Shown here: positions 1 through 41,400 of the stretch, piece after piece | Position numbering within the stretch: the first letter of the stretch is position 1 | Layout of the letters: the number at the start of each line of letters is the position of its first letter | Origin: an uncultured Pelagibacteraceae bacterium | Lineage (GTDB): Bacteria > Pseudomonadota > Alphaproteobacteria > Pelagibacterales > Pelagibacteraceae | Direction of reading: 5' to 3' | DNA: 64,000 nt | Assembly (NCBI GenBank): GCA_902615445.1 | Contig: CACMOQ010000002.1 | Coordinates: 1 to 64,000, forward strand | Translations under genes and position numbers: made by a program | The notes under the pieces: model-generated | Seen by the model: only the letters and a program-made list of their open reading frames with translations | Told to the model about the DNA's origin: nothing | Databases searched by the model: none

Positions 1-250
1 CTGATAGCGTCTCAACATTACTAACAACTCTATTATAATCAAAAGACCAATCAACTTTGGTACAATCTAACTCTTTGTAATAATAAATTTTTGTTTTTTT
101 TATTGATGGATCGATTTCTTCCGTAAGTATATTTAATAATTTTGTTTTTTTATCAATTGCAAAATTATACCTACATACATTTGAGGTTGTCCAATAAAAT
201 ATTACAGAAATTAAAATCGCAAAGAATGACATAACTTTAGTTAAGCTCAT
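1..250 (-). CDS. Small exported or membrane-anchored protein of unknown function (3' end beyond the left edge)
   Basis: An open frame reads from the ATG at 250 leftward to the edge with no stop, giving about 83 visible residues. It begins MSLTKVMSFFAILISVIFYW, a short basic start followed by a hydrophobic segment, consistent with an uncleaved anchor or signal peptide. The rest is Lys/Tyr-rich and soluble-looking, with two cysteines. Its ATG overlaps the stop of the upstream GAF-PP2C phosphatase gene as ATGA, so the two are probably translationally coupled. I do not recognise the family. Coding is supported by the overlap and the plausible N-terminus; the C-terminus is not visible. Confidence 0.6.
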   Translation of the reverse strand, partial: MSLTKVMSFFAILISVIFYWTTSNVCRYNFAIDKKTKLLNILTEEIDPSIKKTKIYYYKELDCTKVDWSFDYNRVVSNVETLS

Positions 251-1569
251 TTAACACTGTCAACTGTCACAATTGTTAAATCATCTTTTTGTATCATTCC
301 TGCTTTGACAATATCTTCAATCATTAACTTAAGTCTTTTATTATTCGGAGTGTGTTGATATTTTTTAATATATTTTTGGAAACCTTCAACTTCAAGCATG
401 TCACCTGAAGGATCTCTTATCTCAGTGATACCATCGGTAAAAATGTACATTGAGCTGTCAGAAAAGTTTGTAGTGGTTTCTTTATATTTTATTTTTGAAG
501 TTATGCCTAAGGGTGGACCAGCTTCAGAAAAGTTAGAAAAGTTTTGATCTTTATCAATTACAAGTGGTGGTTCGTGACCTGCGTTTGATAATAATAATTC
601 TTTTTTATTACTATCATAAATCCCAATCAACATTGTTACGAACATTCCTCTTGCAGCAGTTTCACATATTTCTTTGTTAAGTAAATTTAAAAGATCTGAA
701 GTTGAAAAAATAGTTTTGCTTAAACATCTATACAAACTTGATGCCTTTGACATCAGTAAGGAAGACTTGATACCTTTGCCTGAAACATCAGCAACACCAA
801 AACCATAAATTCCTTTTGCTATTTCAGAAAAATTATAAAAATCACCAGAAACGACTTTCGCTGGAATATTTATTCCTGCAATTGGAAAGTCTTCATCTTT
901 ATTTTTAGATAATAAAGTTTTTTGTATTTCACCAACTATTTCTATTTCTTTTTGCATTCTATTTTTATCAATTAATTCTTTAGCCATTTTTGCATTACGA
1001 ATTGCTAAAGCAGCTGGAGCAGATAATGTCTCTAACAATTTTCTATCATTCTCCTCAAATAACTTAGAGGATGTTTTTTTATTTAAACAATGGATTACTC
1101 CTATACATTCGTTTGCAGCAATTAATGGTGAACAAAGAACTGAATAAGTTGTAAAATTTGTTTTGTTATCTAAATCAAAATAAAACTCAGCTATTTCTCT
1201 TACGTCTTTTCTAACATCTCCAACTCTAATACATTTTTTTTGAAGAACTGCTTTTCCCATTACTCCTTGAGTTAGTGGTATCTCGTATTCATCAAGGTAT
1301 GATTGATATTTGGATGCAATACATTGGAAAACTTGTTTCTTTTCATCTATCAAAAAAATATTTGCAGCTTGGGCATTTATTCTTTTTATGATTACTTCTA
1401 ATGCAGTTTGCAAAGTTTCATTCAAATCTAAAGAGGTAGCAAACTCTTGATTCATTTGCGTAATTATTGCCAAATCTTGGTTTAAATCGTTATCTTTTGT
1501 AATTGGCACTACTTTTTTTGATTTAAAAAACATTTTAATATTAGTTTTACATCCCTTTCTTATTGGCAT
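247..1569 (-). CDS. GAF domain-containing PP2C-type (RsbU/SpoIIE family) serine phosphatase
   Basis: This 440-residue cytosolic signalling protein has a GAF sensor domain at about residues 50-195, a short helical linker, and a PP2C/SpoIIE phosphatase domain at about 230-438. The phosphatase motifs are clear: VSGDFYNF (240-247), ADVSGKG (260-266), SNAGHEPP near 330, FTDGITE near 378 and DDLTIV near the end, supplying the Asp residues that bind the two metals. In this family the enzyme usually dephosphorylates an anti-sigma-factor antagonist (STAS protein) or related switch. No STAS or anti-sigma partner is encoded here. The ATG at 1569 is preceded by AAAGGG; Met13 is an alternative start. The gene lies beside a type IV pilus cluster, so a surface-related role is possible but unproven. 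Confidence 0.9.
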   Translation of the reverse strand: MPIRKGCKTNIKMFFKSKKVVPITKDNDLNQDLAIITQMNQEFATSLDLNETLQTALEVIIKRINAQAANIFLIDEKKQVFQCIASKYQSYLDEYEIPLTQGVMGKAVLQKKCIRVGDVRKDVREIAEFYFDLDNKTNFTTYSVLCSPLIAANECIGVIHCLNKKTSSKLFEENDRKLLETLSAPAALAIRNAKMAKELIDKNRMQKEIEIVGEIQKTLLSKNKDEDFPIAGINIPAKVVSGDFYNFSEIAKGIYGFGVADVSGKGIKSSLLMSKASSLYRCLSKTIFSTSDLLNLLNKEICETAARGMFVTMLIGIYDSNKKELLLSNAGHEPPLVIDKDQNFSNFSEAGPPLGITSKIKYKETTTNFSDSSMYIFTDGITEIRDPSGDMLEVEGFQKYIKKYQHTPNNKRLKLMIEDIVKAGMIQKDDLTIVTVDSVK

Positions 1570-1599
1570 TTTAACCCTTTTTTGATAATTTTAACAGAT

Positions 1600-1713
1600 A
1601 TGGAAATCGTAATTAATTCGCCAGGTTTATATTTACATATTCATGACGCAATGGTTTTTATTCAGTACTGCATTGATGGAGTCATAAATATTGCTTCACA
1701 ATTCAAAATCTAA
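1600..1713 (+). CDS. Possible 37-residue small protein upstream of prepilin peptidase
   Basis: An ATG at 1600 opens a 37-codon frame ending at TAA 1711-1713, four bases before the GTG start of the prepilin peptidase gene. The translation begins MEIVINSPGLYLHIHDAMVF. It has no clear Shine-Dalgarno site and matches nothing I recognise. The tight spacing to the next gene would suit translational coupling, but a frame this short can occur by chance in AT-rich DNA. It could equally be the untranslated leader of the peptidase gene. Confidence 0.25.
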   Translation: MEIVINSPGLYLHIHDAMVFIQYCIDGVINIASQFKI

Positions 1714-1716
1714 TTA

Positions 1717-2487
1717 GTGATTTTTGTTTTTTTTTTTATTTTAGGAAGTATTTGGGGAAGTTTCTGTAATGTATGTATATTTAGATTACCAAAAGACAAA
1801 GGTGTCGTTATAGATCGTTCCTTTTGTCCAAAATGTAAAAAAATCATAAAGTGGTATGACAACATTCCTTTAATTTCATTTTTATTTTTAAAAAGAAAAT
1901 GTAGAAATTGCGATTATATAATTAATATTCAATATTTTATTGTTGAGTTATTAACCGCAATAAGCTTTTGTTTGATCTACTACATCTATGGATTAAGTGT
2001 CACTACGTTATTATTTATAGTTTTAAGTATATTCTTTGTAATAATTTTTTTTATTGATCTAAAACATTTTATCATACCAAATGAATTAACTTTTCCTTTA
2101 ATGTTTATTGGTTTTGTAAAATCATTTTATCCTAATTTGGATACAGTAATCTTTCCAAATTTTATAAACTCATTGATTGGTGGTGCTCTTGGTTATATAA
2201 TTGTATGGACAATCATTTTTCTCTACAAAAAAATTAAAAATAAAGAAGGTATGGGTTTAGGTGATGCTAAACTTTTATCGGCAATCGGTTTTTGGTTTGG
2301 ATGGGTAAGTGTACCGTTAATAATTTTTTTTTCTTCCTTAATAGCTTTAGCATATGTATCTCCTACATTGATCAACAGAACTAAAAATTTATCAACACAG
2401 ATTCCTTTTGGTCCTTATCTCATTATAGGAACAATAATCTTTATAATTTTCGGAAATCAAATAAAATTATTATTATTCAATTACTAA
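1717..2487 (+). CDS. pilD: Type IV prepilin peptidase / N-methyltransferase (A24 family)
   Basis: This polytopic inner-membrane protein of 256 residues cleaves the leader of type IV prepilins and methylates the new N-terminal residue. The N-terminal domain has the zinc-type CPKC (37-40) and CRNC (62-65) pairs. The A24 catalytic aspartates are visible in FIDLKHFIIPNE (Asp114) and GLGDAKLLSAIG (Asp183). The start is GTG at 1717, placing the typical GSxxGSFxNVxIxRLP motif at residues 10-25. It converges on the pilY1 operon, overlapping its last codon. Its substrates probably include the four pilin-like proteins encoded at 8001-11045. Confidence 0.95.
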   Translation: MIFVFFFILGSIWGSFCNVCIFRLPKDKGVVIDRSFCPKCKKIIKWYDNIPLISFLFLKRKCRNCDYIINIQYFIVELLTAISFCLIYYIYGLSVTTLLFIVLSIFFVIIFFIDLKHFIIPNELTFPLMFIGFVKSFYPNLDTVIFPNFINSLIGGALGYIIVWTIIFLYKKIKNKEGMGLGDAKLLSAIGFWFGWVSVPLIIFFSSLIALAYVSPTLINRTKNLSTQIPFGPYLIIGTIIFIIFGNQIKLLLFNY

Positions 2488-5400
2488 TAGTTCTCTCTCC
2501 AAGAATCTCTGAATGATCTAAATTGTTTGTCGCTAGCCAATATTTGAACTAGAGTATCTTCTGTTGCATCTGGACCTGCAAGGTTTGCAAACATTCTTCC
2601 TCCAAAGACAACTAGTTTTGATAAAATACCAGCTCCTACTTCATAACAAGTTCCCTCTGTTACAGAGCTATCAATGTGAAGTGTATCTAATGAACCACAT
2701 TCGTCATCGTAAGCACAAACATATGCAGTTCCTAGTTTACATGCGTTTCTATTTGGTTCATAGATCGGAAAATAAACTTTTCCTCTATAAACAGTAGGAG
2801 CTGCCGAAGTTTTTCTAAATTTATTAACTGTAGTTGACAAAGGATTTGTATCAGGAGTTCCTAAATGAACTCTCCATGCATCTGTGTTATTTGTTATTTC
2901 ACAGATTGGGTAAGTATCACCTGTTGTATTTTTACATAAAGTGCCTTGATCTATTGTAGGAGTTATAGTGTTTGTTCCTATAATAGTAGCAGCATCAAAA
3001 ACAAAGTTTGTGTTTCCACTTAGTAATGGTGGTGAAGATTTTGAAACAAAGTTTGGAAAATCACGGTCTCTAATACCATAAACAATGTTATCCATTTCGC
3101 TTTTACCATCCTCACCTACTGTTTCTGATATTCTATTAAAATTACCAGTTCCACCAAACAGCCATAGGTTTCCTGAATCTCCTCCAATTCCAGCATCCAA
3201 CTCAAAAAAACTATACCTTTTATTTTTAAAATCAGCTCCAAGTGTCATTATTGTTTGTTGTTCATATAAAGTGCCCTCAGAAGTCAAATTTATTTTTGTA
3301 ATTTTACCCTCTAAGTCGTTAATATAAACTAGCGCACCTCGCCAATTAGCATTAGCCGCGTTCTTTGCTGTAATTACAACTGGTGTTGAGGGTACTGAAT
3401 TAGTAATTGGGCTTGCATTAGCAAATGTACCAGAGATACCCATTTTATAACCATTTTCATCAGTATCTAATATTCTTAAAAAACCATTATTTTCGGTTTC
3501 TGAATATCCGTACAAGCTTCCAGCTCTGTGATCTAATTCAACATTATCTGGGTCTACCTCTGCTCCTCCCTCTAAATCAACAATAAAGACACCTGAGCCT
3601 ACACATTTAGTTCCTGAGCCCATTCCTCCACCCATAACTGCAACGTATCGATCGGTTAAAATATTACTATCCCCAGTTTTGTTTGGGATTCTAAAAATTC
3701 TTGGAGTAGACCATGTTTCACCTAATCCGCTGTAATCGTAAGCTTTAGTGGCCATGGCTTGGCCTTCGCACGTTGTTTCTATTTTTATTTTATTTGAAGC
3801 AGTATCAGTTAATCCTTGATTAATAGTAACAGTTTTACCAAAATCAACTGTCAAAGTTGATCCTGAATATGTTGCTGTCACCCCAGTCATCGGTGTCCAA
3901 TCATCGCTTATTAATTCTGAAATTGATAAAACTCCATCTTTAAGATTACCACTACTATCTATAGCACTTGCTGGTAAATCAATATCAAATGTAAATTCTT
4001 CACCGTTAAAACAGGTAGTTGCCCCACCGTCATAAGATACATTTATAAAATTATTAGGAGTAAAATCACTATTAGATTTGCACTCTGCTTTTGCGTCTCG
4101 ATTAGTGAAATAATGTATGTCGTCAGCTGGATCGTCAGGTGTACCACCATCATCTACAGGTGGTAGAGCTTTATCCAGAGTTTCAGCTAAAGAATAGATA
4201 TCAGCCGCATGTTTGGCTTCTTTTGATTCTATCAATGTAGTTGTGGCTCTCTCATAAGGTAATCTAATTATTTTACCCTTATGGTCTATTCTTATAACTT
4301 CTTTATTATAAGAGTCGTTGAATATAGAGAACATATGTAGTGGCCCTGTTCCTGTTGTAGTTGTTCCTGTTGTAGTATCAGTAGTCCCAGCAGTAAGTGT
4401 TGGTTTAGTCACATCTAATACAGAAAATCCAGCTCCTCCACGACCGTAAGGTACAAACAATAATGTTCGCCATGATTTTTGGGTCTGATATTTCGATCCA
4501 TCTGCTTCAAGTCCAAAAATAAATGCATCATGTGCAACAGGTGATCCATCAACACCAAATATTGCATTCGATCCTCCTGCTTTTTTACTCAATAAAAATT
4601 GTCCATCATAATTTGCGTTAATTAATAGTGGTAATTGAGCTGCGATCATTGGCGGTACAAATGCCCACTCTTCAGATCCGTTAGAAGCATTAATCGCATG
4701 TAGCATTCCACCATTTGAACCCGCATAAATAATTTGTGCTCTATTTTTATTATTTAATTTAAAATTTTGATAACCTTTACTTGCTCTCCAGTAAGCTTCT
4801 TCGTTGTTACCTTTAAAGTTTGTACTAGCGTTAGGTGGACCCACTTCAATTAGCTGTGAATGATAAATATCTGCCAGAATTGACTCTCGATCCTCAGTAA
4901 TGTTACATTCGCCACTACCATCTGATCCGTTGTAATCAAAATAATCAACTCCCCTTACAAAATTAATTAGACCCTTAACGTCATCATCAATGCCATCCTC
5001 TACTCCTGGTGTATTTTTAATTCCACACGTTGATCCAGTATTATGATAATCTCTTACAACGTTACCTGTTGATTCAAATAATTCCTGTATTGGTAAAGCG
5101 TTGTTCTCGTTCCAATTATTCCAGTTCCCAAGATAATTTGCGTCAGGGTAAGTATCGGTATCGATTGCTGTCCAAATATTTCTACCAGTTGATTTTTGAG
5201 CTTTAATTGAACGAGCAGCATCCCAGTTACCAAATGGATTTGAGGGCGAGGTGTCATGTTTAACTTCGCCATCTACAATTGATTTTCTCAGTAAGTGTCC
5301 AGTCCATTCTCCATTAGCTTCATAAGTAAACTGAGCTTGATAAACAGATCCTCCTTCTTCAAGAGTTGCTGTAATTGATGGAGCTGAGAAAGATAATCTC

Positions 5401-7409
5401 TCAGCAATAATCTGTCTAATTTTTGATCCAATCTCTGTTTTTAAATCTTCAGGAGTATCAGCTCCAATAGCTCTTTCGCATCCTGTTTTATCTGAAAGTG
5501 GCTCAAAAGTGTATGGATCTGTAACATCCCAATAATTTCCAGGGCTCTTACAAGAGCCAGCTCTTGCTAACCTATCAAATATTGGCTTAGCAGATGTATT
5601 ATAAGAACCACCATATCCAACCATAAGAGTTGTTACTTTATGCTCATCTTTTAACCTTGCTAAAGTTCTGTAAGCTTCCCACCAATTTCTGATATAACCA
5701 TCACTAATTACAATCACATAATTCAACTGACATGGTAAATTTGGATCTATGATAGGTGTGTCTCCTCTTAAATTTCCAAAATAATTATAAGCTATTTCCG
5801 CAAAAGAATTTCCATCTGTCCCCCATGCCATGCCAATGTTTGGTAAAACTTCTAGAATTTTATCAGCACCTTTTGGGCTTACTCCAACATTTAAACACCA
5901 ATCATTTAAACAAGGATTCGATTTTCCATCTGGGTGAACTGGATCTCCATCCCATCCACCTTCATTATACCAGCAAGCATTATGATAATGACAATATTTT
6001 TCACCTCCTCCTCTTGCTGTTGACCACCAGGCCGCACCACCACGCCAATCTGTTGTTCCAGAGTTCCAATGCCCAAAACCAAAATTTGCTCCCGCTGTTA
6101 ATGCGCTATCAGTTACGATAGCCTCAATCGCATCTTTTGCACCTTCAAATTTTGATACTTTTGCTCCACCGTATCTTGCTCTCCATGCTGTATCTTTATC
6201 AGCATCGGTTAATTTATTTACATCAAATTTGTGAATGAATGAATTTCTATCACCCACTAAAACTCTTGAAGAGCTTGTAAAAATATTATTAGCAAAAGTA
6301 GAGCTCGATGCTTTTCCAGGCATATTAAACTCGACATTTGCAGCAGAAACTGTTCCTGGGTCTTGATTATCAAAGACAGAACCTGTTCCGTTTTTACCAA
6401 TAGTTATATCTAAACTTGCTGTAAAATTTGTATGATTAACTGAAATTCTTTGAAGAACATGTGAGTTCTTACTTGTGGTATAGATCTTATTATTTACATC
6501 CCGAGAATATTTGATTGAATAAATATCTTTTATATCATCTGTATAAGAGTTTTGTACACTAGGGCTCTGTACTCTATTACGTCCAGTATTTATATAATAA
6601 TCCCAATTACCATCGGTTGGACAATAAAGATTATTACCATCTTTTGATAACTCAAAACCGAATAGACTCTGACCTCTTGCTAAATAAATATAATCTCCGT
6701 TATTACTTATAGTCATAGACATAGCTTTGTTGCCCGCTAATGAGCTACCAAAATATTGTCCGTTATTTATAGAACATCTTTTTTGTGCACCAGTTGTTAA
6801 ATTTTTGACATATAGTTTACCTTTTTTTCCACCCCCTTCATGAGTTCTACCTCCTACAAAAAGAATTTCTTCATTATCTATCTCTCTTATCTCTAACAGA
6901 GCTGGCATTGCAATTTTAGTTTTGTTAAATCCAATTACCTCAACACATACACCTGAGCTGTTAATTGCAACTATCTGTCCTCCACCTTGTGTTGAAAGAC
7001 CGTAAACTACATCATTTGAGGTTACATCTCCTGCCCAACTTTTATTAACTTTAGAATTTGTACCGCAATCTGGGTCATTATTACTTCCTCTAAAATTTAT
7101 TGCATTTTTTGCAAATGATACATCTCTAGCGCCATCTGCACTTAAAATTTTTGAAAAACCTCTACCGTTTTCAGCAAAAATGATATTGCCATCACTTAAC
7201 TCTACCGCCCAGTCAATACCGTAAGTACCCATACCACCCGATACTATATTTCTCATACTAACCGAACTATCTAATAGTATTAAAATATTAGCGGGAACAT
7301 CTCCCTCTCCTGAACCAGGAGGGATTGGTTTGGTAAATGATTTTGGAATTATTATTAAAAATAATATTAAGTTTAAGATGAGAGTTTTTATCAAAGTTTT
7401 AGTTTTCAT
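2484..7409 (-). CDS. pilY1: PilY1/PilC-type pilus tip adhesin with N-terminal von Willebrand A-like domain
   Basis: This 1641-residue exported protein has an N-terminal signal sequence (about 1-26) and a MIDAS-like DSSVS motif at 47-51, typical of a von Willebrand A domain. The C-terminal third is a PilC beta-propeller: YAGSNGGMLHAINA near residue 896, a GGGMGSG segment, and the usual ending SWREN at the extreme C-terminus. Family members sit at the pilus tip, promote pilus extension and adhesion, and act with minor pilins. The gene is last in the minus-strand pilin operon, its ATG overlapping the preceding stop by four bases. Many Cys residues in the N-terminal half suggest disulfides. It is long for the family, and the linker at about 1,100-1,250 resembles nothing I know. 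Confidence 0.92.
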   Translation of the reverse strand: MKTKTLIKTLILNLILFLIIIPKSFTKPIPPGSGEGDVPANILILLDSSVSMRNIVSGGMGTYGIDWAVELSDGNIIFAENGRGFSKILSADGARDVSFAKNAINFRGSNNDPDCGTNSKVNKSWAGDVTSNDVVYGLSTQGGGQIVAINSSGVCVEVIGFNKTKIAMPALLEIREIDNEEILFVGGRTHEGGGKKGKLYVKNLTTGAQKRCSINNGQYFGSSLAGNKAMSMTISNNGDYIYLARGQSLFGFELSKDGNNLYCPTDGNWDYYINTGRNRVQSPSVQNSYTDDIKDIYSIKYSRDVNNKIYTTSKNSHVLQRISVNHTNFTASLDITIGKNGTGSVFDNQDPGTVSAANVEFNMPGKASSSTFANNIFTSSSRVLVGDRNSFIHKFDVNKLTDADKDTAWRARYGGAKVSKFEGAKDAIEAIVTDSALTAGANFGFGHWNSGTTDWRGGAAWWSTARGGGEKYCHYHNACWYNEGGWDGDPVHPDGKSNPCLNDWCLNVGVSPKGADKILEVLPNIGMAWGTDGNSFAEIAYNYFGNLRGDTPIIDPNLPCQLNYVIVISDGYIRNWWEAYRTLARLKDEHKVTTLMVGYGGSYNTSAKPIFDRLARAGSCKSPGNYWDVTDPYTFEPLSDKTGCERAIGADTPEDLKTEIGSKIRQIIAERLSFSAPSITATLEEGGSVYQAQFTYEANGEWTGHLLRKSIVDGEVKHDTSPSNPFGNWDAARSIKAQKSTGRNIWTAIDTDTYPDANYLGNWNNWNENNALPIQELFESTGNVVRDYHNTGSTCGIKNTPGVEDGIDDDVKGLINFVRGVDYFDYNGSDGSGECNITEDRESILADIYHSQLIEVGPPNASTNFKGNNEEAYWRASKGYQNFKLNNKNRAQIIYAGSNGGMLHAINASNGSEEWAFVPPMIAAQLPLLINANYDGQFLLSKKAGGSNAIFGVDGSPVAHDAFIFGLEADGSKYQTQKSWRTLLFVPYGRGGAGFSVLDVTKPTLTAGTTDTTTGTTTTGTGPLHMFSIFNDSYNKEVIRIDHKGKIIRLPYERATTTLIESKEAKHAADIYSLAETLDKALPPVDDGGTPDDPADDIHYFTNRDAKAECKSNSDFTPNNFINVSYDGGATTCFNGEEFTFDIDLPASAIDSSGNLKDGVLSISELISDDWTPMTGVTATYSGSTLTVDFGKTVTINQGLTDTASNKIKIETTCEGQAMATKAYDYSGLGETWSTPRIFRIPNKTGDSNILTDRYVAVMGGGMGSGTKCVGSGVFIVDLEGGAEVDPDNVELDHRAGSLYGYSETENNGFLRILDTDENGYKMGISGTFANASPITNSVPSTPVVITAKNAANANWRGALVYINDLEGKITKINLTSEGTLYEQQTIMTLGADFKNKRYSFFELDAGIGGDSGNLWLFGGTGNFNRISETVGEDGKSEMDNIVYGIRDRDFPNFVSKSSPPLLSGNTNFVFDAATIIGTNTITPTIDQGTLCKNTTGDTYPICEITNNTDAWRVHLGTPDTNPLSTTVNKFRKTSAAPTVYRGKVYFPIYEPNRNACKLGTAYVCAYDDECGSLDTLHIDSSVTEGTCYEVGAGILSKLVVFGGRMFANLAGPDATEDTLVQILASDKQFRSFRDSWRENY

Positions 7410-39147: not shown

Positions 39148-39157
39148 GAATAATTTA

Positions 39158-39187
39158 TTGAATCTTTAATTATTACTTTTATATTAA
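39158..39187 (+). promoter_or_regulatory. Candidate ssrA promoter
   Basis: TTGAAT (39158-39163) and TATTAA (39182-39187) are separated by 18 bases, each close to the sigma-70 -35 and -10 consensus. A start a few bases on would begin the precursor near 39194, just at a GTTGG-TTTT-CCAAC hairpin. The position fits ssrA transcription; the consensus match alone would be weak. Confidence 0.45.
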
Positions 39188-39193
39188 ACATGT

Positions 39194-39452
39194 TGGTTTT
39201 CCAACTATGACGATAAATGAATCTCGTAATAACCATTGCGGACGTGGGGGCAGTACCCACCACCTCCACCATTTTCAACTTATGGGGGTGAACTAGATTC
39301 GACGGATGACTAAAGGTTATTCTTTCGTTCGGAATTGTCCCCCGTAAAGGGCTATTTTATAATTGCTAACGAAAGTTACGCACTTGCTGCTTAATTAATT
39401 TTATTAATTAAGTAAACGGGGTTTGGGGCACCTGGCAACAGAACGCCCCTAT
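39194..39452 (+). ncRNA. ssrA: Transfer-messenger RNA, circularly permuted two-piece type; tag ANESYALAA
   Basis: The acceptor half comes first: CACCTCC-A-CCA ends at 39271. A 12-base loop follows, then the coding half opens with GGGGGTG (39284-39290), which pairs with CACCTCC to make the acceptor stem (one G-U), and TAGATTCGACGG, a tmRNA 5' signature. AATAACC (39228-39234) pairs with GGTTATT (39315-39321) as helix P2. The tag frame GCT...TAA (39365-39394) encodes ANESYALAA. A GNRA-capped hairpin (GGGGC...CTGGCAACAG...GCCCC) closes the 3' end near 39450. This order is the permuted two-piece form found in alphaproteobacteria. The tmRNA rescues stalled ribosomes. Exact ends are inferred. Confidence 0.95.
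39421..39450 (+). repeat. ssrA 3'-end repeat, copy 1 (within ssrA; candidate attachment site)
   Basis: This 30-base segment starting GTTTGGGGCA and ending GCCCCT is the 3' hairpin of the tmRNA coding piece. It matches 41066-41095 at 28 of 30 positions, in direct orientation. The copies flank the membrane sulfatase-fold gene, which is why this looks like one end of an inserted segment. Confidence 0.8.
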
Positions 39453-39468
39453 TAAACTAAAAGTTTAA
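39452..39468 (+). terminator. Hairpin after ssrA, possible terminator
   Basis: TTAAACT-AAA-AGTTTAA forms a 7-bp AT-rich stem beginning directly after the tmRNA 3' hairpin. An A-run rather than a T-run follows, so it is weak as an intrinsic terminator for ssrA. It could mark the processed end of the precursor. Confidence 0.3.
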
Positions 39469-39522
39469 AAAAATTTACAAATTTTACTAGATCTCCACTT
39501 AAACTTATTTTCAAAGCAAAAA

Positions 39523-40968
39523 TTAAATTCTTGAAATAAAGTATATATCGACCGTATCTTCAAAATGAATTCTTCTTTTGCCAGAAAACATCGGGGGTGT
39601 ATCAGAAAATAAAACCAAAAGATCATTTTTTTCCAACCTTGAAATAAACTTAGAAATATTCTCGTTAAAAAACATCTGATTATTATAAATTGTACAAAAC
39701 TGTTTACTTAAATTTAAAGGAAAATTTTTTTCACAATTTATATATTGTTTATAAGTAATTGGTTCTACCGGGATATGATTATTAACAGTCAAAAAAACTA
39801 CAAAATTATTATTTTTTTTATTAACTAACATATCCATATTATTCAAAATATCATGATCACAAACTCCACTAAATTTTTGGATACATTTACTAAAACCAAA
39901 TTTTTTTAAATCTCCACTAAAATAAGATTTATCAAAAAAATTTTTATATCTTGATCTATTAAAAAATGACTCTTCATAACTGTGTATATAAACAAAATTT
40001 TTATCTTTAATGTTATTTATCCAACAATTATTTTTGTCCAAAAAAATATCAAGTTCTTCTTTTTGGAACGCGTTATAATCAACCTCTTTATCACAGAAGA
40101 ATTCCATTTCAGAGCCCTGGGTAGTTACAGATCTATTCCATTTTTTTTTGAATTTTTGAATATTTAAACTTTCATTATTTAGAACAATTTTTTGGAATAA
40201 ATTTTTTTTAAGGTCTTGATTTCTAAAATTTGGATAAGATTCGTTTATTATCACATAAATATTATTAAATTTTTTTTGGGTGATAATTTTTTCAAAATTC
40301 CCAAAATATTTATAATCATCTATTTTCACAAGTTTTCTTGAACCTGCAGGAAGATTGTCAGAATAAATAAATGTATAGTTTAATGTATTGAACCAATTCT
40401 CGTTTCTAAATAAATTATTCTTTACCATTTGATTATAATATTTCACCTCGTAGTCAAAATTTCTATCTAGCTCAGTCCACATGTTAGTTGCACCTTTTAT
40501 TCTTTCAATTAAACTAAGATGAGAAAGTGATGGATTTATAATTGAAAGTATAAATGCTAAAATGAAGGAAAATAAGTAAAATTTTTGATTAATAGTATAT
40601 GATTTAAATTTAAAATTGATCTCATATTTTTTTTTCTCAAGATAGAAAATTATAAATGTAGCAAAAACCAAATAATAAATAATACTTATATTTTCATAAA
40701 ATATGTATCCAACATAATCATAATTTAAAGTTAAAAAATTATTAAAAATTAATTTATAAAAATGAAAATCAAGTCCATACTGACTTATGAAAGCTGAAAC
40801 ACTCTCAAAAAAAATAAAAAAGTATAATAAATATAAATGAATTGAATAAATTAAAGATTGTATAGAAATAAAACCAAAATCAAAAGAATATGTGTCTGAT
40901 AAATAAACTAAAGCTAATATATTTACTGAAAAAACTCTAAAAAAATAATATTTTAAATATAATTTCAT
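39523..40968 (-). CDS. Membrane-bound sulfatase-fold phosphotransferase-like protein
   Basis: This 481-residue protein has about five N-terminal transmembrane segments (residues 1-160) and a C-terminal domain of the alkaline phosphatase superfamily, as in phosphoglycerol or phosphoethanolamine transferases. Seen motifs are INESYP near 241 (metal ligand), VTTQGSEMEFFC near 283 (candidate Thr nucleophile), LTVNNHIP near 394 and FSDTPP near 455. At the last motif related enzymes usually have Asp-His; here it is Asp-Thr, so a metal ligand may be changed or activity lost. The gene is very AT-rich and sits alone between the two ssrA 3'-end copies, pointing to horizontal acquisition. Probable role: decoration of a surface polysaccharide or lipid. 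Substrate unknown. Confidence 0.8.
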   Translation of the reverse strand: MKLYLKYYFFRVFSVNILALVYLSDTYSFDFGFISIQSLIYSIHLYLLYFFIFFESVSAFISQYGLDFHFYKLIFNNFLTLNYDYVGYIFYENISIIYYLVFATFIIFYLEKKKYEINFKFKSYTINQKFYLFSFILAFILSIINPSLSHLSLIERIKGATNMWTELDRNFDYEVKYYNQMVKNNLFRNENWFNTLNYTFIYSDNLPAGSRKLVKIDDYKYFGNFEKIITQKKFNNIYVIINESYPNFRNQDLKKNLFQKIVLNNESLNIQKFKKKWNRSVTTQGSEMEFFCDKEVDYNAFQKEELDIFLDKNNCWINNIKDKNFVYIHSYEESFFNRSRYKNFFDKSYFSGDLKKFGFSKCIQKFSGVCDHDILNNMDMLVNKKNNNFVVFLTVNNHIPVEPITYKQYINCEKNFPLNLSKQFCTIYNNQMFFNENISKFISRLEKNDLLVLFSDTPPMFSGKRRIHFEDTVDIYFISRI

Positions 40969-41065
40969 TATTCGAGTATATCACTTTATAAGTTGGTGTT
41001 CTGGTGGCGTTTTATTAATAATAAATGGGTTTTCAATTCAATTAAATCACGAATAATGCAACAAA

Positions 41066-41095
41066 GTTTGGGGCATCTGGTAACAGAACGCCCCT
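41066..41095 (+). repeat. ssrA 3'-end repeat, copy 2 (displaced fragment)
   Basis: This 30-base direct repeat of 39421-39450 differs by two C-to-T changes. The GGGGC/GCCCC stem and the CTG/CAG stem are intact, and the tetraloop changes from GCAA to GTAA, both of GNRA type. No acceptor half, tag frame or P2 strand lies upstream, so this is not a second tmRNA. A TGACT-TTA-AGTCA hairpin follows at 41101-41113, paralleling the hairpin after copy 1. Confidence 0.8.
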
Positions 41096-41149
41096 TTAAA
41101 TGACTTTAAGTCACAGTGAAAATTTCTAACAAAAAATTAAATATATTGT

Positions 41150-41272
41150 ATGGAAACAGTTATACTTTTATTATTAGCAATAGTGGTAATTTGGATTTTG
41201 TTCAGACCAGTAACAAAAAAAGAGCTTGATAGGTATAATGATAAAGATAATTGGTCAAATATGGGGTTTTAA
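41150..41272 (+). CDS. Small single-span membrane protein (40 residues)
   Basis: ATG at 41150 to TAA at 41272 encodes a 40-residue protein beginning METVILLLLAIVVIWILFRP, a textbook transmembrane helix at about 3-18, followed by a polar, charged tail ending NDKDNWSNMGF. The composition (helix, then RPVTKKELD) and the absence of other genes here support a real gene. I do not recognise a family. It lies between the ssrA 3' fragment and tRNA-Leu. Confidence 0.55.
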   Translation: METVILLLLAIVVIWILFRPVTKKELDRYNDKDNWSNMGF

Positions 41273-41314: not shown

Positions 41315-41400
41315 TGGTGCGGTCAGAGAGACTCGAACTCTCATGGACCAGGTCCACACGGCCCTCAACCGTGCCTGTCTACCAATTTCAGCATGACCGC
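41315..41400 (-). tRNA. tRNA-Leu (anticodon GAG)
   Basis: The reverse complement begins GCGGTCATGCTGAAATTGGT and ends GACCGCACCA, with CCA encoded. The anticodon stem-loop CACGG-TTGAGGG-CCGTG gives anticodon GAG, reading CUC/CUU. A long variable arm (TGGACCTGGTCCA) is typical of Leu, and TTCGAGT forms the T-loop. The acceptor stem GCGGTCA/TGACCGC is fully paired. Total 86 bases. Confidence 0.97.

Follow-up and report, generated by a model that had tools for sequence, protein, structure and literature searches.

Elements integrated at ssrA, the gene for transfer-messenger RNA (tmRNA), generally restore their target on one side and leave the displaced fragment at the far end. The nearest published case that we found is that of the ssrA genomic islands (ssrA-GIs; vcr-GI) of Dehalococcoides, which, according to the available sections of the two sources, lie in tandem downstream of ssrA and carry short direct repeats of its 3' end (PMC2764846; PMC3146451). 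The same sections list 16 islands with an integration module and 15 without one, the latter taken as possibly mobilised with their neighbours, and describe multi-gene units served by the serine recombinase DsiB (PMC2764846; PMC3146451). Here we analyse a 64,000-nt stretch of an uncultured Pelagibacteraceae (SAR11) bacterium (contig CACMOQ010000002.1, positions 1 to 64,000, assembly GCA_902615445.1; hereafter the window, whose positions are used throughout), in which the 3' hairpin of ssrA occurs twice around a single gene, the layout of ssrA-integrated elements. We consider it probable that this locus is one member of a mobile gene-cassette system of the Pelagibacteraceae, in which an integrase would exchange the strands and passive cassettes would be moved in trans.

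The last 30 nt of ssrA are seen again at 41066-41095 on the same strand, with 28/30 identical positions and a spacing of 1,645 bp; a repeat search returned a longer pair (39421-39455 and 41066-41100; 35 nt, 89% identity). A chance repeat is ruled out, because the 25-mer core GGGGCAYCTGGYAACAGAACGCCCC has exactly two copies in its own genome at up to three mismatches and its reversed control none. The copies differ at two positions (CAcCTGGcAAC versus CAtCTGGtAAC), and both form a GGGGC/GCCCC stem with a CUG-GNAA-CAG top (fold z-scores modest, -1.01 and -2.54). The initial annotation had reported this duplication around a lone gene and had argued that the differences preserve the hairpin and its GNRA loop; repeat and core searches, the single open reading frame (ORF) of 481 aa between the copies and the like folding of both hairpins bear it out.

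It had further proposed that an insertion replaced the 3' end and left the displaced fragment at the far end, and had suggested comparing the ssrA-to-nadA interval among SAR11 genomes. This comparison gave empty sites with one hairpin and occupied sites with at least two and variable cargo. The sequence GAACGCCCC is followed directly by the window's host flank AATGACTTTAAGTCACAGTGA in 5/399 genomes of the genus. At loci L296 (genome G050) and L298 (G110), the sole hairpin is that of ssrA itself, joined to the host flank without any insert; in the window, L294 (G093) and L295 (G332), the hairpin before the flank is preceded by the right end of a cassette, ...ACAAAGTT(C/T). Since L296 and L298 carry ssrA, one hairpin and the same host flank, the window equals an empty site plus 1,645 bp. 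The comparison shows that the 1,645 bp were inserted at the 3' hairpin of a permuted ssrA, with a full ssrA end on their left and, on their right, a site composed of the element's own left half and the right half of the host. The closest relative among the loci read (L121 in G055; thyX 98%, nadA 96%) carries a single hairpin and another cargo, about 0.9 kb long.

That the second hairpin might be an independent conserved RNA, the alternative named in the initial annotation, was rejected: empty sites lack it, and Rfam reports only tmRNA there. Its left half is specific to the element and host sequence follows it.

Table 1. Features of the ssrA locus and its inserted element, in window coordinates.
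Feature	Position	Strand	Basis or remark
ssrA, permuted two-piece alphaproteobacterial tmRNA	39154..39453	+	Rfam alpha_tmRNA RF01849, 223.2 bits, E 2.5e-63; attachment target at its 3' end
Left core site, restored ssrA 3' hairpin, GGGGCACCTGGCAACAGAACGCCCC	39425..39449	+	Repeat, core search, folding
Left end of element, up to stop codon of cargo gene	39450..39522	+	No arm word in common with right end
Cargo gene, 481-aa membrane protein	39523..40968	-	Sole long ORF between the hairpin copies
Right arm, two related words TGGTGTT and TGGCGTT, 11 bp apart	40994..41011	+	Word family and spacing
Right end, belonging to the largest right-end family, of 35 cassettes, ...TTTTCAATTCAATTAAATCACGAATAATGCAACAAAGTTT	41030..41069	+	Comparison of cassette ends
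Right core site, second hairpin, GGGGCATCTGGTAACAGAACGCCCC	41070..41094	+	Repeat, core search, folding
Host right flank, AATGACTTTAAGTCACAGTGA	41099..41119	+	Directly 3' of the lone ssrA hairpin in empty sites L296 and L298
Small membrane ORF (40 aa) in the host flank, METVILLL...DNWSNMGF (LFRPVTKKELDRYNDKDNWSNMGF)	41150..41272	+	Conserved
tRNA-Leu(GAG), next core gene past the site	41315..41400	-	RNA gene prediction

Comparison shows that in relatives the position at ssrA, and sometimes that behind rnhA, pnp or other genes, can be empty, hold a single cassette or hold a head-to-tail array. The core is present at up to two mismatches in 166/201 genomes of the genus, often in several copies each. 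The first 81 loci held 159 sites, all in one direction, and the whole pool of 181 loci, which partly overlap in genome, held 379 with none in the opposite orientation; these sites come from a 16-mer search with up to two substitutions, which favours conserved right halves and misses decayed sites. As many as seven sites stand at one ssrA locus (L057), the maximum. Pooled fractions are not prevalences, because loci were picked partly for genomes with several matches (L033-L072, L089-L128, L265-L284) or for a 30-mer of two right-end families (L180-L259). A less biased set is formed only by the 26 of 29 genomes that were at least 90% complete and had their ssrA locus read: 7 of them have two or more sites and 19 have one, and 8 of these 19 single-site loci are empty, with at most 160 bp to tRNA-Leu. 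The coding-piece end of the permuted tmRNA, whose use as a target the initial annotation thought would be notable, serves these relatives as attachment site again and again.

The pool contains 202 inter-site intervals, of which 180 are distinct after removal of identical ones, a step taken because some loci overlap (median 806 bp, quartiles 518-1529, range 96-6148). A single ORF of at least 55 aa is found in 108 of the 180 distinct intervals and none in 5, and ORFs of this size lie mostly on the minus strand (228 versus 66 on the plus strand). Removal of near-copies left 173 cassettes. Single cassettes recur in different places: L054 and L091 have a 318-bp cassette in common (96.5%) at different array positions, and 699 bp (94%) are common to L065 at rnhA and L119 at ssrA, 349 bp (95%) to L069 at ssrA and L092 at rnhA, and 1,019 bp (94%) to L051 at ssrA and L103 elsewhere. 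The left core site is invariant in 64/64 ssrA-anchored loci, with no mismatch to one of two clade forms. Mean core mismatches rise with distance from ssrA (0, 1.84, 4.31 and 5.5 at positions 0-3; n = 64, 32, 13 and 8), a count whose apparent conservation is inflated by the site finder and which is not a clock for array age, because the rise lies almost wholly in the element-specific left half.

A distinct form of the target occurs in L108-L113 (G028, G154, G061, G196, G141 and G152), a sublineage in whose ssrA hairpin CCGGGTAAC stands in place of CCTGGCAAC. Extra copies there carry the same change together with a longer shared left flank, and one later site of L109 has the common form; it is as if elements and target had co-diverged, to judge from these sequences.

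Exact 30-mers of two right-end families and the core, searched in genome contigs of 84,980 species, matched 85 stretches, all Pelagibacteraceae or Pelagibacterales by title and mostly single-cell genomes. Within the order, an 18-mer at up to one mismatch is found in 87/94 genomes of the window's own family and in 0/53 of the other family, where the ssrA end may simply differ.

The 81 loci are anchored at ssrA (58), rnhA (9), pnp (5) or elsewhere (8), and one has no site. Among 30 rnhA ends surveyed, a script placed a core-like site at the stop codon of 7, and inspection by eye added 3; among 30 pnp ends, a site lies near the stop in 3, and one more lies at +58 behind the native terminator. Such positions could suit a transcription terminator, mobile or convergently recruited, copies of which came to lie behind several genes, the genes in between having arrived by another route: the hairpin is stable and followed by T, it stands in sense direction behind the rnhA and pnp stop codons, and empty ssrA sites carry long T runs. 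We hold this explanation to be very improbable. The host flank is continuous at empty sites, and the empty and occupied alleles of the window show a precise insertion between hairpins; loop and 12-nt right half are kept though a stem alone would do (the site finder itself requires part of them), and conserved cassette ends and arm words would have no explanation.

Two side observations concern rnhA. In the window's own genome (L150, G000:C8), a decayed core-like site, GGGGCAACTTGCAACAGAACGGTTC, beyond the reach of the three-mismatch search, follows directly after the rnhA stop codon. In L156 and L159, the position directly after this codon is taken, in place of the ssrA core, by another hairpin-like fragment, AGCGC(A/T)CGCTTGGAAAG-GCA-TGCT, which by eye resembles the anticodon arm of tRNA-Ser(GGA) and is perhaps the mark of another element family.

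Most cassettes consist of one or two genes flanked by conserved ends. A gene on the minus strand mostly stops 60-95 bp short of the left site and begins some 100-135 bp away from the right one; the corresponding distances in the window are 73 and 101 bp. Among the 173 cassettes, 329 pairs have both ends in common without any interior similarity of 60 bp or more (median extent of shared ends 79 bp on the left, 97 bp on the right), and 208 pairs do have interior sequence in common. The right-end families have 35 (that of the window), 27, 22, 14 and fewer members. GC-rich words such as TGGCGTC, TTGGTCG, TCCGC and TACGG stand near both ends of many cassettes, doubled 11 or 12 bp apart; a GC-rich 6-mer is repeated at a spacing of 11 in 62/160 right arms and of 12 in 18/160, versus one each in a control stretch. 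Arm-type sites of tyrosine integrases typically look like this, with a pair of words separated by one helical turn.

The arm word varies among cassettes of one family and agrees between the two ends of one cassette. A GC-rich 7-mer is common to a cassette's own left and right arms in 84/160 cases, versus a mean of 16.3 and a maximum of 27 in 200 re-pairings, and a rerun with controls gave 77/143 versus 14.8 (maximum 26 in 500 re-pairings), with 9 versus 10.0 and 6 versus 8.5 in two inner stretches. The match is marked in the window's family (33/35 versus 9.4, maximum 16) and in the family of 14 (14 versus 6.6, maximum 11). The word of the window's right arm is also present at both ends of L107. 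Judged from these patterns, the doubled words are likely to represent a code of recombinase arm sites.

The left halves of the cores are element-specific, for instance ACAAAGTTCGGGGCACCTGGC, CTAATGCCGGGC (family of 22) and ATTATAGGGGGA, each followed by ACAGAACGCCCC. L107 has the cassette's GAACGCCCC at its left site, and its right site ends in the host-specific right half GAACGGCCC (GAACGGCCCTACC), as does the uninterrupted rnhA site of L151 (GAACGGGCCTACC). Because left halves follow the element and the right half follows the host, we infer from the junctions that strands are exchanged between about CAAC and GAAC, at the top of the hairpin.

These data also bear on a simpler account, which would do without a special cassette system and in which an integrase element entered ssrA once, kept one gene and died, the repeats being its displaced attachment site. 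Islands at ssrA are a known kind, as the consulted parts of PMC4383910 (Islander) and PMC3146451 illustrate. The window itself would suit this account, having neither integrase nor left arm word, as would two relatives of its cargo (82-83% identity) at ssrA in other genomes, one with a decayed and the other with a replaced right end. It is nonetheless unlikely: independent decay would not give 329 pairs with common ends and unrelated interiors, the matching arm words would stay unexplained, and near-identical single cassettes occur in different array positions and loci. The window copy itself has lost its left arm word and is, on this evidence, probably decayed and no longer mobile.

A source of recombinase is found in relatives. 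At L089 (G160), ssrA and the core are followed by a 343-aa integrase, small ORFs, a 733-aa primase-like protein and, 6.17 kb away, a second core with the right end AAACAAAGTTC. The integrase matches PF00589 (Phage_integrase) and phrog_1, and the primase-like protein matches phrog_1156 (8.1e-25) and DUF5906. In G241 (L130, L265), a 52% identical integrase with a PF00589 match stands directly behind the ssrA core, on a contig that stops before the right end of the element. Homologs of the L089 integrase at E <=1e-10 occur in 21/399 genomes; the two closest (L089/L129 and L130/L265) lie directly behind the ssrA site, and the other 19 genomes have no core within a flank of about 1.5 kb. The integrases or integrase fragments of these nineteen SAR11 genomes (L131-L149) have 29-44% identity to the L089 enzyme and probably use other targets. 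More broadly, PF00589 matches occur in at least 148/201 genomes; among the matches listed there is mostly one per genome, of about 300-326 aa and Xer-like by length only, and the longer proteins listed are not at the listed ssrA sites.

The arm words of the integrase elements recur in passive cassettes, and from this we infer mobilisation in trans. The L265 element has TTGGCGTCATGGTGGCGTCA ahead of its integrase; its word TGGCGTC is found in 6/160 right arms (3 with both arms), with 2 interior matches in 139,041 bases. The L089 word TTGGTCG is found in 14/160 right arms (4 with both arms, L089 included), with 1 interior match in the same 139,041 bases. In the window, the list of ORFs holds no integrase between the sites, and the only PF00589 match of its genome is on a different contig (G000:C3). 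The initial annotation, having found no integrase, had left open whether the element was a relic or had been moved in trans: the lost arm word and the decayed or replaced right ends of the two cargo relatives lend support to the former, the shared core and arm words of integrase elements in relatives to the latter. Its description as a minimal integrated element is an understatement, the window holding one cassette of a large array system.

Homologous recombination deserves consideration at this point. Hairpins and shared ends could serve as short homology for RecA-dependent exchange or slippage, the integrases being incidental; integrases are rare, and the consulted parts of PMC4033161 present SAR11 islands as thought to be replaced via their flanks (compare the passage on HVR2 in PMC2217521). 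We judge this quite unlikely, for the 25-bp core that contains the junctions is set in places (ssrA, rnhA, pnp) without further homology, the match between left and right arm words of one cassette would have no role, and both integrases stand directly behind the core. A phage-borne attP as the source of the core was also considered and discarded: none of 50,697 phage records contained the ssrA end, and the 8 contigs with the core in IMG/VR carry it within a full tmRNA gene each. Those contigs, L073 (10573-10892 of a 242,646-bp contig) and L074-L080, hold the exact 25-mer inside a permuted tmRNA gene; the portion consulted of PMC9004378 describes phage-encoded two-piece tmRNA for other marine phages.

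We propose the following working of the cassette system. A tyrosine integrase would swap strands in that part of the shared core which runs from about CAAC to GAAC, and junctions of integrase-dependent recombination would be expected inside CAACAGAAC. The exchange would be guided by the doubled arm-type words 11-12 bp apart, alike at both ends of a cassette. The enzyme would be supplied by rare satellite-like elements of 6 kb with the same core (L089; also L265), which would move passive cassettes with the same arm words in trans, and ssrA would keep its 3' stem, given by the hairpin, after each event.

Several observations weigh against this integrase-guided reading. Integrase elements are rare (2/399 genomes), and with 20 integrase queries a relative was found in only 1/180 distinct intervals, that of L089. 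The arm test is uneven: one inner control stretch scored slightly over its mean (21 versus 12.5, maximum 22), the match is weak in the family of 27 (19 versus 12.1, maximum 18), no co-variation is seen in the family of 22 (1 versus 1.7) or that of 5 (4 versus 4), and the window scores 0, with a right arm and no matching left arm. Full cores behind pnp lie at differing offsets and most genomes have none there, so that simple core-to-core recombination fails to explain them. The two cargo homologs of 82-83% identity at ssrA suggest that part of the pattern may be due to long residence or vertical descent. Exact-pattern scans of IMG/VR for the right ends of two cassettes and for one pattern joining end and core gave no match, nor was a relative of the L089 integrase found there. 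No excision, circle or transfer was observed.

As for what is carried, the 215 cassette ORFs of at least 90 aa form 158 clusters, and a MKK[ILFV]-like start lies within 45 aa in 61/215. A Pfam scan of 100 of the 158 cluster representatives (first 25 of 80 families) gave, among the matches listed, N6_N4_Mtase (4), polysaccharide lyase (3) and SHOCT (3), and T5orf172, MrcB_N, GIY-YIG, FkbM methyltransferase and Exo_endo_phos with 2 each. PADLOC reported methylases and a type I restriction-like protein, and PHROGs DNA methyltransferases and nucleases.

The window cargo had been annotated as a membrane sulfatase-fold transferase, a label that for fold and function is backed weakly. The protein has N-terminal helices and the LTA-synthase-like motifs INESYPNF, TQGSE, TVNNHIP and FSDTPP, and its function might, to go by these motifs, be LTA-synthase-like. 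No Pfam family above the cut-off and no PHROG family matches it, a profile of 8 relatives searched against the PDB reached the phosphoglycerol transferase GacH at E 0.018 only, and an AlphaFold model made without alignment is of no use (mean pLDDT 36.1). Homologs occur in 9/300 genomes, its own included, and in 3 of these, again with its own, they lie beside a core; L287 has an 82% identical cargo at ssrA with the same left end as the window element.

Two observations concern the surroundings of the element. ARAGORN places the tmRNA at 39177-39485 (tmRNA*, tag ANESYALAA). Relatives of the 40-aa membrane ORF of the host flank are found before a cassette in L103 and, with a similar start, directly behind pnp in L310; this ORF may itself travel.

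SAR11 is among the most abundant groups of marine bacteria and has streamlined genomes, in which, to our knowledge, few mobile elements have been recognised. An exactly searchable mark of 25 bp here sets the bounds of the units that hundreds of genomes gain and lose, and gives the ends of the cassettes, and small secreted proteins of unknown function are tied, together with restriction and methylation genes, to a movable platform. The arm words predict which passive cassettes pair with which integrases, and mobilisation in trans is thereby directly testable. We speculate, with confidence evenly divided, that SAR11 maintains an integron-like cassette economy on the tmRNA 3' hairpin, with a large pool of expression cassettes of one or two genes, in which private doubled arm words at both ends of each cassette would name the integrase and rare satellite-borne tyrosine integrases would shuffle cassettes in trans into the 3' ends of ssrA, rnhA and pnp. 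The most streamlined marine genomes would in this way be supplied with secreted proteins, DNA methylases, nucleases and surface enzymes.

None of the titles and abstracts searched describes arrays of cassettes at the ssrA of SAR11; the search left out the greater part of subscription articles and preprints, so that such an absence is no proof. The consulted parts of PMC7318151 do not mention tmRNA, ssrA or cassettes, and section 10 of PMC2704228, as far as consulted, contains no description of this hairpin.

Phage satellites and tycheposons of marine bacteria resemble L089 only, which combines an integrase and a primase-like gene in 6.2 kb at an RNA gene (compare the consulted part of PMC10872708). 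The SAR11 units are for the most part far smaller, and neither a capsid or packaging gene nor a virion record was found. Integrons share more with the present system, namely cassettes of mostly one gene, sites in one orientation that form hairpins, and an integrase located elsewhere that serves passive units. Unlike integrons, SAR11 arrays have no integrase at their head except in L089 and L265, their core is provided by an RNA gene, at its 3' end, and the genes mostly run against the direction of the sites. An intI beside an attI was not seen: there is no integrase at the window and an integrase relative in 1/180 intervals, no intI-specific model having been used. The consulted part of Wilhelm et al. 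reports no attC in SAR11 hypervariable regions (PMC2217521).

Compared with ssrA-integrated elements in general, the window has the restored target with the displaced fragment at the far end in the same orientation, relatives have the empty site, and an integrase belonging to the element is found only in L089 and L265; the SAR11 system differs from such elements in its hundreds of sites, its arrays and its mostly integrase-less single-gene units. Williams (2003) reportedly described a cyanobacterial case in which one element occupies the non-tRNA-like 3' end of a permuted ssrA. With the Dehalococcoides islands, SAR11 shares tandem units bounded by ssrA 3' repeats (a single unit in the window), variable cargo and the many units without integrase. 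It differs from them in its tyrosine integrase, in units with a median of 0.8 kb, in the coding-piece end of a permuted gene as core, in paired arm words and in extra sites behind rnhA and pnp; the two integrases beside the core are of the tyrosine type (PF00589) and not DsiB-like, serine recombinases having not been searched for separately. Altogether, the cassette system, for which the literature searched holds no earlier description, is like the ssrA islands in its working and like cassette arrays in its anatomy.

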